Below are positions 57,942-61,595 of a DNA stretch of 64,000 nt, one piece after another. The notes below the pieces were generated by a model that had not been told where the DNA came from, did not search any database, and was given only the letters and a program-made list of their open reading frames with translations. How positions within the stretch are numbered: the stretch's first letter is position 1; each line of letters begins with the position of its first letter. Source of the DNA: Mesonia hippocampi (GTDB taxonomy: Bacteria > Bacteroidota > Bacteroidia > Flavobacteriales > Flavobacteriaceae); the NCBI RefSeq assembly GCF_014197445.1, contig NZ_JACIFO010000001.1, positions 248,001-312,000 on the forward strand. Direction: 5' to 3'. The translations under genes were made by a program, and so were the position numbers.

Positions 57942-60900
57942 ATGCAACAAATAACTCCCTATAAACCTAAACACAAAGTACGAATTGTAACTGCAGCTTC
58001 TCTATTTGATGGGCACGATGCTGCTATTAATATTATGCGCCGAATTATTCAATCTACTGGGGTTGAAGTAATTCACTTAGGGCATGATAGAAGCGTTGAA
58101 GAAGTAGTAAACTGTGCTATTCAAGAGGACGCTAATGCAATTGCTATGACTTCGTACCAAGGTGGACACAACGAGTACTTTAAGTACATGTATGATTTAT
58201 TGCAAGAAAAAGGAGCTGGACATATTAAAATATTTGGTGGTGGTGGTGGAGTAATTCTACCTGAGGAAATCAAAGAATTGATGGACTACGGAATTACTCG
58301 TATTTACTCTCCTGATGATGGTCGTGAATTGGGATTACAAGGAATGATTAACGATTTAGTTCAACAATCGGACTTTGCCATAGGAGACAAATTGAATGGT
58401 GAAGTAAACAAGTTAGCCGACAAAGAAATAGGAAGCATTGCTCGTGTAATTTCTTCTGCCGAAAACTTTCCAGAGGTTGCTAAAGAAGCTTTAGACACCA
58501 TTCACAAAAAAAATAAAAACTCTAAAACTCCTGTATTAGGAATTACTGGTACTGGTGGTGCTGGTAAATCGAGTTTAGTTGACGAATTAGTTCGTCGTTT
58601 CTTAATTGATTTTCCAAACAAAACGATTGGATTAATTTCTGTTGATCCATCAAAAAGAAAAACGGGTGGTGCTTTATTAGGTGATCGTATTCGTATGAAT
58701 GCCATCAATAACGAACGTGTATATATGCGTTCATTAGCTACACGTCAGTCAAACTTAGCTTTATCTAAATATGTAAACGAAGCGGTAGAAGTATTAAAAG
58801 CTGCCGAATTTGATTTAATTATTTTAGAAACTTCAGGTATCGGACAATCAGATACAGAGATTATTGAACATTCTGATACTTCGTTGTATGTAATGACTCC
58901 TGAATTTGGTGCTGCAACTCAGTTAGAAAAAATCGACATGCTTGATTTTGCTGATTTAGTAGCTATTAACAAATTTGATAAAAGAGGAGCTTTAGATGCT
59001 TTACGCGATGTAAAAAAACAATACATGCGTAACAACAATTTATGGGATGTTCACATGGATGACATGCCTGTTTTTGGTACGATTGCATCTCAATTCAACG
59101 ATCCAGGAATGAATTCGCTATACAAAGCGATTATGGACAAGTTGGTTGAAAAGGCTGGAGCTGATTTACAGTCTACTTTTGAAATTACGAAAGAAATGTC
59201 TGAAAAGATATTCGTAATTCCACCAAGTAGAACACGCTATTTATCTGAAATTTCAGAAAACAACCGCGCCTATGATAAAACAGTTAATGAGCAAGAAAAA
59301 GTAGCTCAGAAACTTTACGGAGTTTATCAAACTATCTTATCTGTCATTCCGAACGAAGTGACGGAATCTTTCCTTACAAAAAACGGAATTGACCAAGATG
59401 AAATTCAGAAACAAGTTCAAAATGACGAGCAACCTTTTGCAAAATTGCTATTTGCTCAATTTGATAAAATAAAACTGAATCTTGACCCACATAACTGGGA
59501 AATCATTTTAAACTGGCAAGAGAAAGTAAGAAAATACAAAGATCCTATTTACTCGTTCAAAGTACGTGATAAGGAAATTAAAATAGAAACACATACAGAA
59601 TCACTTTCACACACGCAAATTCCGAAAGTTGCTTTACCAAAATACCAAGCTTGGGGTGATTTATTACGTTGGAATTTACAAGAGAATGTTCCAGGAGAAT
59701 TCCCATATGCTTCAGGATTATATCCTTTTAAACGTACAGGAGAAGATCCAACACGTATGTTTGCCGGTGAAGGTGGACCTGAACGTACTAACCGTCGTTT
59801 TCACTATGTGAGTTTAGGTATGCCTGCGAAACGTTTATCTACAGCATTTGACTCGGTTACTTTATACGGTAACGATCCAGGGCACAGACCAGATATTTAT
59901 GGTAAAATTGGTAATGCTGGGGTTTCTATTTGTTGTTTAGATGATGCTAAAAAATTATATTCTGGTTTCGATTTAAGTCATGCTATGACTTCGGTTTCTA
60001 TGACTATTAATGGTCCTGCTCCGATGTTATTAGGATTCTTTATGAATGCAGCTATCGACCAGAACTGTGAGAAATACATCAAAGAGCACAAATTAGAAAA
60101 AAAGGTTGAAGCAAAGCTTAAAGAATTATATGACGATAAAGGGATAGAACGTCCTAAATATAATGGTGATTTACCAGAAGGTAATGACGGATTAGGATTA
60201 TTACTTTTAGGTGTTACAGGTGATCAAATCTTACCTGCCGATGTATATGCTGAAATTAAAGCAAATACCTTAGCACAAGTACGTGGTACGGTTCAAGCAG
60301 ATATCTTAAAAGAAGACCAAGCACAAAATACGTGTATTTTCTCTACGGAATTTGCTTTACGTTTAATGGGAGATGTACAAGAGTATTTTATTGAGAAAAA
60401 TGTTCGTAATTTCTATTCAGTTTCAATCTCTGGATATCATATTGCAGAAGCTGGTGCAAACCCTATTACACAGTTAGCATTAACGTTGGCAAACGGGTTT
60501 ACCTACGTAGAATACTACTTATCAAGAGGAATGGATATCAATAAGTTTGGTCCAAATTTATCGTTCTTCTTCTCAAATGGTATTGATCCAGAATATGCGG
60601 TGATTGGTCGTGTAGCTCGTAAAATTTGGGCAAAAGCTCTAAAGTATAAGTACGCAGCAAACCCTAGAGCTCAAATGTTAAAATATCATATTCAAACTTC
60701 TGGACGTTCATTACACGCTCAAGAAATTGATTTTAATGATATTCGTACAACGCTACAGGCTTTATATGCGATTTACGACAACTGTAACTCGTTACATACG
60801 AATGCGTATGATGAAGCGATTACTACACCTACAGAAGAATCTGTACGTCGTGCAATGGCAATTCAGTTAATCATTAATAAAGAATTAGGATTGGCTAAAA

Positions 60901-61382
60901 ACGAAAATCCAATTCAAGGTTCATTTATTATTGAAGAATTAACTGATTTAGTTGAGGAAGCAGTATTAACTGAATTCGACAGAATTACAGAACGTGGTGG
61001 TGTTTTAGGAGCGATGGAAACGATGTACCAACGTTCTAAAATTCAAGAAGAAAGTTTATACTACGAAACCTTAAAACACACTGGTGAATTCCCTATTATT
61101 GGTGTAAATACATTCTTAAGTTCTAAAGGCTCTCCAACGGTTACTCCACAAGAGGTGATTCGTGCTACAGAGGAGGAAAAACAATTCCAAATCAAAACGA
61201 AAGAGAACTTAAACAAAGCACATGAAGATAAAATAGAACAACTTTTATCTGAAATGCAATCGGCTGCCATTAACAATCAAAACCTTTTTGAAAAATTAAT
61301 GGATGCTACTAAAGTTTGTTCGTTAGGACAAATTACTGCAGCCTTATTTGAAGTAGGTGGTCAATACAGACGAAACATGTAA
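57942..61382 (+). CDS. icmF: Fused isobutyryl-CoA mutase (B12-dependent, with G-protein chaperone domain)
   Basis: The 1146-residue protein has the IcmF order. A B12-binding domain comes first (DGHD, His25 is the lower cobalt ligand), then a MeaB-like GTPase (P-loop GTGGAGKS, 203-210), a linker and a mutase barrel. The first 20 residues of the longer frame (57882) look non-coding, so ATG 57942 is chosen. The substrate pocket has Phe607 in TRMFAGEG and Gln795 in DQAQNTC at the places of methylmalonyl-CoA mutase Tyr89 and Arg207. This is the isobutyryl-CoA mutase pair. Arg codons are mostly CGT, unlike neighbouring genes. An inverted-repeat sequence lies at residues 468-495. Confidence 0.92.
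59343..59426. repeat. 84-bp inverted-repeat element embedded in frame in icmF
   Basis: The ends are GTCATTCCGAAC (59343-59354) and, on the minus strand, GTCATTTTGAAC (59426-59415), which agree in 10 of 12 bases. Just inside, GACGGAATCT and GAAATTCAGAA continue the pattern. Sequences of this kind (TGTCATTCCGAACGAAGTGA) recur between genes in many flavobacterial genomes. Here 84 bases, exactly 28 codons, encode residues 468-495 of the linker. Confidence 0.65.
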
Positions 61383-61407
61383 GCACACAATGTTTGCAGA
61401 TAAGTAT

Positions 61408-61441
61408 AATAAACCTCTTAGAAATTTCTAAGAGGTTTATT
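61408..61441 (+). terminator. icmF terminator
   Basis: A 34-base perfect palindrome with an AAACCTCTTAG / CTAAGAGGTTT core followed by a T run lies 25 bases after the icmF stop. Confidence 0.9.
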
Positions 61442-61595
61442 TTTTTGTTCTAGTTCGTTTTCGGAGTTTAAAAATCCGATCATCATAATAGGCTTTCAAT
61501 TCATCAACAAACGACATACTGTAATCGCGCTGAGTGCGTTTTACATAATTGTTTTTAACGATTTCTTTTTGTATCGCTATTTCAGGACGTGACAT
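61437..61595 (-). pseudogene. Probable remnant of an IS3-type transposase OrfA
   Basis: A 52-codon frame begins MSRPEIAIQKEIV and contains VKRTQRDYSMSF, which resembles the N-terminus of IS3-family OrfA proteins, where RTQRDYS-SF is followed by the helix-turn-helix. That continuation is missing; after MSF the frame turns to a short basic tail (FKLRKRTRTKK) and stops within the icmF terminator. No terminal inverted repeats or OrfB were seen. It is therefore best read as a deletion remnant, though a genuine small protein cannot be excluded. Confidence 0.45.

Follow-up and report, generated by a model that had tools for sequence, protein, structure and literature searches.

Introduction

The REPIN/RAYT system, reportedly described by Bertels and Rainey in 2011, pairs two REPs in inverted orientation across a short spacer and has the tag GTAG. 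CGTC-tagged REPs are repeated within a genome and carry an unpaired CGTC tag at one end (with TGTC and CCTC variants), a stem measuring 8-9 bp and a loop of 4-5 nt, according to sections of Di Nocera et al. (2013, PMC3733652). The same sections state that dimers and heterodimers of these REPs are frequent, that they have no dedicated transposase and that they are reported in Bacteroidetes. Some copies lie in frame within genes, often repair genes, and in two Xanthomonas species recB carries REPs at about the same site (sections of PMC3733652). The Rickettsia palindromic elements (RPE) of Ogata et al. (2000, 2002), as summarized in passages of PMC10969869, PMC2996958 and PMC3733652, are approximately 150 bp long and form several families. 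The RepRanger catalogue of REPs (2025, PMC12306157) includes Flavobacterium genomes in its table and, in one of its passages, defines REPs as seldom overlapping coding regions; the words "intragenic" and "in-frame" are absent from its main text. In the main text of PMC3733652, neither flavobacter, Tenacibaculum and Polaribacter nor mutase occurs. Among titles and the opening lines of abstracts, no report was found of REPs inside icmF or flavobacterial genes.

IcmF is a fused isobutyryl-CoA mutase/GTPase. In the Cupriavidus enzyme, a linker joins the G-protein and mutase domains, as described in a part of PMC10481361. The icmF gene studied here lies in a 64-kb stretch of DNA, hereafter the window, which was analysed as a whole. 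The genus of the window (Mesonia-like) includes Mesonia aquimarina, as G003 equals L108 over 6429 bases. We consider it highly probable that a short segment of this gene is a REPIN-like dimer, formed by two GTCA-tagged REPs of different subfamilies inside the linker that connects the GTPase domain of IcmF to its mutase domain, and that in-frame REP insertions are tolerated.

Results

The icmF product scored 1739.6 bits against the NCBIfam model NF045497 (cut-off 1500). It contained the Pfam domains B12-binding, MeaB and MM_CoA_mutase, that is, fused B12-binding, GTPase and mutase domains, and was matched by phmmer to the solved IcmF 4xc6. Codons 468-495 are occupied by a segment of exactly 84 nt (GTCATTCCGAAC...GTTCAAAATGAC, 59343-59426), in frame and without a stop codon. 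The earlier note had described the segment in these terms, and its observation was confirmed in coordinates and sequence; the interpretation that it gave was partly supported. The opening letters of the segment are GTCATTCCGAACGAAGTGACGGAATCT and the closing letters are the inverse of GTCATTTTGAACTTGTTTCTGAATT. The left REP is one base and the right REP three bases off REPs known from other genomes, and together they have the geometry of a REP dimer with the GTCA tags outward (Table 1). The base preceding GTC in the REP of the window is T.

Table 1. Positions, in window coordinates, of the icmF gene, its REPs and the surrounding tract.
Feature	Positions	Strand	Evidence
Tract of icmF and about 70 downstream bases, most likely from a Tenacibaculum-like donor	57942..61450	+	DNA identity, tree
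icmF, fused isobutyryl-CoA mutase/GTPase, 1146 aa, intact ORF	57942..61382	+	NCBIfam, Pfam, phmmer
Left REP, forward, codons V468-S476 (VIPNEVTES)	59343..59369	+	1 mismatch to REPs of G010 and G026; library match; structural scans
Spacer between left and right REP, 32 nt	59370..59401	+	Alignments
Right REP, inverted (GTCATTTTGAACTTGTTTCTGAATT on the minus strand), read ..QKQVQND on the plus strand	59402..59426	-	3 mismatches to GTCATTCTGAACTTGTTTCAGAATC; exact in L126

When one of the 12-nt ends of the segment was inverted, the two agreed at 10 of 12 positions. The window contained two perfect matches to GTCATTYYGAAC, which are both ends of the segment; at up to 2 mismatches there were 7 matches, fewer than the 15.4 expected by chance. 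Among the window repeats listed (20 of at least 60 direct families and 25 of at least 175 inverted pairs), none was related to the segment. The segment as one single hairpin was rejected, as its folding was no better than that of shuffles (z -0.38). The left 27 nt fold into a hairpin of 6 bp (z -1.17), whereas practically no hairpin forms in the right 27 nt (-0.3 kcal/mol), and the right arm of the window is eroded.

The icmF set comprised 223 genes (222 distinct; 255,042 codons), including the gene of the window. The first set had 125 genes. The second, from about one genome per genus, had 98 after 5 duplicates were removed from 103; some genera occur in both sets, which thus are not independent in descent. 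A library of 72 REPs from loci other than icmF was compared with these genes at up to 4 mismatches, with the reversed REPs as the control. The results showed 27 matches in 21 of the 125 genes of the first set and 17 matches in 14 of the 98 genes of the second, all at residues 455-505. In both sets, the rest of the icmF genes contained no library REP, and the reversed REPs matched nowhere. In total, 44 matches in 35 of 223 genes were confined to a linker of 51 codons; the linkers of the remaining 188 genes had no REP at this threshold. An earlier library test with 38 typed REPs and 96 genes gave 24 matches and the same outcome. A strict scan independent of the library (GTCA-N4-GARC...rc(N4)) found 28 matches in 25 of the 223 genes and none beyond the linker, while 10 synonymous codon shuffles gave 0-2 matches in all genes together and 0-1 in the linker. 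A looser structural scan placed 13 matches in the linkers of 11 of the 125 genes of the first set and a single match outside (L138), with 0-6 matches in each synonymous shuffle.

The REPs in the linker were of differing types. At the left position, they are read as VIPNEVTES (window), VTSSGVEKS (L022), VIASETKQS (L311) or VKLSLSKF (L095 and L342), and at the right position as QVQND (L053 and L126) or LDSARDD (L064 and L127); the inverted REP type of L064 and L127 differs from that of their relatives L052 and L053. The peptide NEVTES is common to Tenacibaculum discolor (L046) and another Tenacibaculum (L047), and NEVKES is found in L126, whose linker contains a near-pristine REP dimer. Gain counting on a FastTree tree gave 16 changes (15 gains and 1 loss when both cost the same), which is a poor count of insertions because of erosion; the total cost was 9.0 when a loss was set to 0.25. 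Six rows that are REP-like by eye (L056, L078, L116, L122, L123 and L130) were left out of this count and raised it to 21 changes when included; L122, L123 and L130 were later matched by the strict library-free scan.

Two further observations concern the form of the linkers. In L081, an older REP seemingly received another REP within its loop, as judged against L071. The extra-long linkers of L062 and L263 (92 and 88 residues between the anchors, respectively) have an added hydrophilic stretch past the right REP.

The strict REP pattern GTCAYYYYGARC-N(5-12)-RRRRTC was searched in 34 genomes and gave 310 matches versus 4 for the reversed control. It was present in 33 of the 34 genomes, with 0-48 matches per genome. 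The only match in the genome of the window is the icmF copy. In this genome, there was no second copy of the left 27-mer at up to 3 mismatches, and BLAST gave no further match to the segment with E < 0.1. Of the 33 other genomes searched, two contained the left 27-mer at 1-3 mismatches, in 12 places altogether, namely 4 places in G010, from the genus of the window, and 8 in G026 (Tenacibaculum sp. AHE14PA); the other 31 genomes had none. All 12 places are free of overlap with ORFs of at least 100 aa. At one of them (L161), a second-type inverted REP follows about 28 bases on, in the same arrangement as in icmF. An exact second copy of an icmF arm was found in 3 (G001, G039 and G289) of 8 genomes, a comparison of strict-pattern arms in G000, G001, G020, G037, G039, G132, G228 and G289. 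This result, the single copy in the genome of the window, the eroded right arm and the one match of the looser scan outside the linker weigh against the reading of the segment as a REP dimer.

The segment had been proposed to be an intergenic repeat captured inside a protein. Its membership in an intergenic family is borne out in the relatives but not in its own genome. The refuting condition that the note had set gave a mixed outcome: no other genome copies were found, yet the segment is not common to all homologues. A flavobacterial repeat does stand in frame here, but the case is not unique, given NEVTES in L046 and L047, NEVKES in L126 and other REP types in other genera.

The harvested REP set contained 127 distinct places at 92 loci (135 before overlaps were removed). 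The base before GTC was C or T in 120 places (64 and 56, respectively) and A or G in the other 7 (5 and 2). By a simple count without bulges, the stem was 8-9 bp in 71 of the 127 places and just 5 bp in 54. The GTCA tags pointed outward in 24 distinct dimers and inward in 9 (26 and 10 before overlap removal), and heterodimers were among them, outside icmF too. In the tag and in the frequency of dimers, these repeats agree with the CGTC-tagged REP superfamily. The transposase search covered the PF01797 (Y1_Tnp) profile, which was found in 19 of 34 genomes and was absent from 15, some of which carry 13-15 REP matches; G000, T. discolor (G016) and G026, the carrier of the left REP type, had no match to it. 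RAYT as the mover of these REPs was unsupported, as PF01797 was missing in those 15 genomes, G000, G016 and G026 among the genomes without a match.

REPs can be read through in some phases only. Of 72 forward REPs, 67, 18 and 67 were open in phases 0, 1 and 2 after the G of GTCA, respectively, and the corresponding numbers for the 72 inverted REPs were 67, 0 and 37. Among the library matches in icmF, forward REPs are read with a GTC codon and inverted REPs with a GAC codon, with L081 as the single exception; the phase of L081 is open in just 18 of 72 REPs. The reading phase in icmF agrees with the stop content of the REPs.

A sample of 80 REPs from eight genomes, with icmF excluded, was used to count in-frame copies, defined by an ORF of at least 150 aa with at least 25 residues on each side. 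Nine of the 80 were in frame, as were 6 of another 22 REPs, sampled in four genomes. The nine genes are methionyl-tRNA synthetase (two), 3-hydroxyacyl-CoA dehydrogenase (two), leucyl-tRNA synthetase, phosphoribosylanthranilate isomerase and three others, and Pfam was run on one of each identified gene; two of the nine copies (L231 and L232) may be chance. A mobile repeat in a protein had been called uncommon, a view that these counts do not support, as in-frame REPs are not very rare here.

In the genus of the window, in-frame REPs were seen at the centres of loci L178, L191, L193, L194, L207 and L211, in 3-hydroxyacyl-CoA dehydrogenase, MetG, LeuS and TrpF. By eye, those in 3-hydroxyacyl-CoA dehydrogenase and MetG each occupy one and the same place in two genomes. 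The centres of loci L361, L370 and L372 have in-frame REPs in genes that by eye resemble DNA polymerase I, topoisomerase I and Mfd; putative genes of these three kinds are among the hosts of the 6 in-frame copies from the sample of 22. In-frame REPs in such putative repair genes agree with the REPs in repair genes mentioned in sections of PMC3733652.

The window's IcmF has 98% protein identity and 91% DNA identity with that of T. discolor. From 57942 to 61450, the window and T. discolor (L046) had 90.9% DNA identity, and outside this tract about 40-50% per 100 bases. The border of high identity is sharp at the 5' side, at the ATG of icmF, and the other border lies about 70 bases past the stop. 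The DNA identity with the icmF of the five congeners compared was 75-77%. In the tree, the icmF of the window was grouped with that of T. discolor at a support of 100; the pair lay among Polaribacter and Tenacibaculum, apart from the 15 other genes of the window's genus. Most likely, the REPs of the window arrived together with icmF by horizontal transfer, and its genome would be without other REP copies because icmF came from a Tenacibaculum-like donor. The icmF of T. discolor has kept the peptide VIPNEVTES and lost the REP through synonymous changes; its genome had 14 strict REP matches, none of them of the window's left type.

The linker was measured between fixed anchors. It had 65-92 residues in 106 Flavobacteriaceae genes (assigned by title, family code or place in the tree) and 65-88 in the 98 genes of the second set, giving 65-92 in 204 family genes overall. 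In other Bacteroidota families, it had 50-56 residues in 17 of 19 genes, and 64 and 72 in the remaining two. In the solved IcmF of Cupriavidus, the flanking aligned blocks are 25 residues closer than in the protein of the window. The long linker of IcmF is an extension specific to Flavobacteriaceae. The linker of the window has 73 residues, and those of other Flavobacteriaceae are equal or up to about 8 residues shorter (65-71), with a few longer, so the suggestion that the segment adds 28 residues does not hold against the relatives, and it is no clean insertion of that length when compared with Flavobacteriaceae that lack recognizable REPs. Of the 204 IcmF genes of the family, 171 had the K.G core of the spacer, whether or not they had recognizable REPs. 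In L091, L095 and L342, a REP lies over residues that are core elsewhere, and LSK.G is covered by the left REP in L091 and L095. Between L095 and L124, in the Flavobacterium clade, the DNA identity was 41% in the linker (codons about 468-505), 85-95% in the flanks and 89% overall; this contrast indicates that interspecies recombination may also move linkers.

These data bear on a different history of the linker. One ancient REP dimer might have been inserted in the Flavobacteriaceae ancestor, with all linkers, the K.G core included, descending from it and with intact REPs as survivors or as copies returned by gene conversion or interspecies recombination. The linker lengths in the family and in other Bacteroidota, the closer blocks in Cupriavidus IcmF, the left REP overlying LSK.G and the swapped tract to which L095 and L124 point all speak for it. 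However, 188 of 223 linkers have no REP at up to 4 mismatches, the core and the REP are too diverged for homology to be judged, and later events would be required anyway to bring different REP types to one position. We regard this history as a serious possibility that is nevertheless somewhat improbable.

Of the 28 codons of the segment, 6 differ synonymously and 2 non-synonymously from those of T. discolor; in the rest of icmF, the numbers are 252 and 24 of 1118 codons. Against L126, the segment shows 4 differences of each kind, and against L047 it shows 6 synonymous and 10 non-synonymous ones. Since synonymous change is equal in the segment and elsewhere in the gene, there is no sign of selection on the DNA repeat as such, and the differences to T. 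discolor, L126 and L047 indicate that the segment is kept as protein, loosely. In a model of residues 430-545 (116 residues, moderate mean pLDDT of 78), the residues of the left REP form a loop after a long helix; the full-length AlphaFold model was discarded (mean pLDDT 52). The REP residues in IcmF are probably a loosely constrained, tolerated spacer.

It is very unlikely that the REPs are retained in icmF as DNA or RNA elements, for example as an interdomain mRNA hairpin, beyond mere tolerance. Some icmF copies of REPs are exact, and REPs elsewhere are plausibly transcribed according to sections of PMC3733652. But T. discolor lost its REP by synonymous changes with the left peptide kept, most relatives have no recognizable REP, and the dimer of the window folds no better than shuffles, unlike that of L126 (z -2.69). 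Coincidence or convergence at the protein level, with a charged, hydrophilic and variable linker that happens to have REP-like DNA, is practically negligible, since the library had no match in the rest of the gene, the reversed REPs had none, and nearly all matches vanish in synonymous shuffles.

Discussion

In this study, we believed that the linker of IcmF is a place where REPs can land and be tolerated. The linker would tolerate extra residues, so that REP insertions that keep the frame could survive selection. The inserted REPs may then erode, persist as protein or be replaced by other REPs, and the replacement may also proceed by recombination with other icmF alleles. A bolder version, which we put forward tentatively and hold to be doubtful, is that the Flavobacteriaceae IcmF linker is a domesticated REP dimer that was acquired a single time, close to the family's root, and is still a landing site, with resident REPs and foreign alleles overwriting it in frame over and over. 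If this is true, part of a central enzyme is made of a mobile repeat and is constantly being renewed.

In-frame REPs as such are already known; the recurrent occupation of one enzyme linker by REPs across a family is new. The icmF genes provide a natural series of mobile repeats in a conserved protein, in which some repeats are fresh and others eroded, exchanged for a different type or transferred horizontally. They show that REPs in Flavobacteriaceae are not strictly extragenic.

The segment in icmF resembles a REPIN in having two inverted REPs and a short spacer, and differs in its tag, which is GTC and not GTAG; unlike in the REPIN/RAYT system, the PF01797 transposase is absent from 15 of 34 genomes. 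As far as the sections of Di Nocera et al. (2013) go, the REPs of this study are similar to CGTC/TGTC-tagged REPs in that GTC is preceded by C or T, in their dimers and heterodimers and in some in-frame copies, and about half of them have the stem of 8-9 bp and a loop of 5 nt. Unlike the REPs in those sections, they occupy one enzyme linker in many genera with differing types. Similar to RPE, as these are summarized in the passages cited above, they are small palindromic elements in frame at tolerant places of conserved proteins. Unlike RPE (approximately 150 bp), they are GTCA REPs of about 25 bp that form dimers of about 63-84 bp in Flavobacteriaceae. With the natural series of icmF, the Rickettsia-based proposal that palindromic repeats feed protein evolution becomes testable in free-living marine bacteria.
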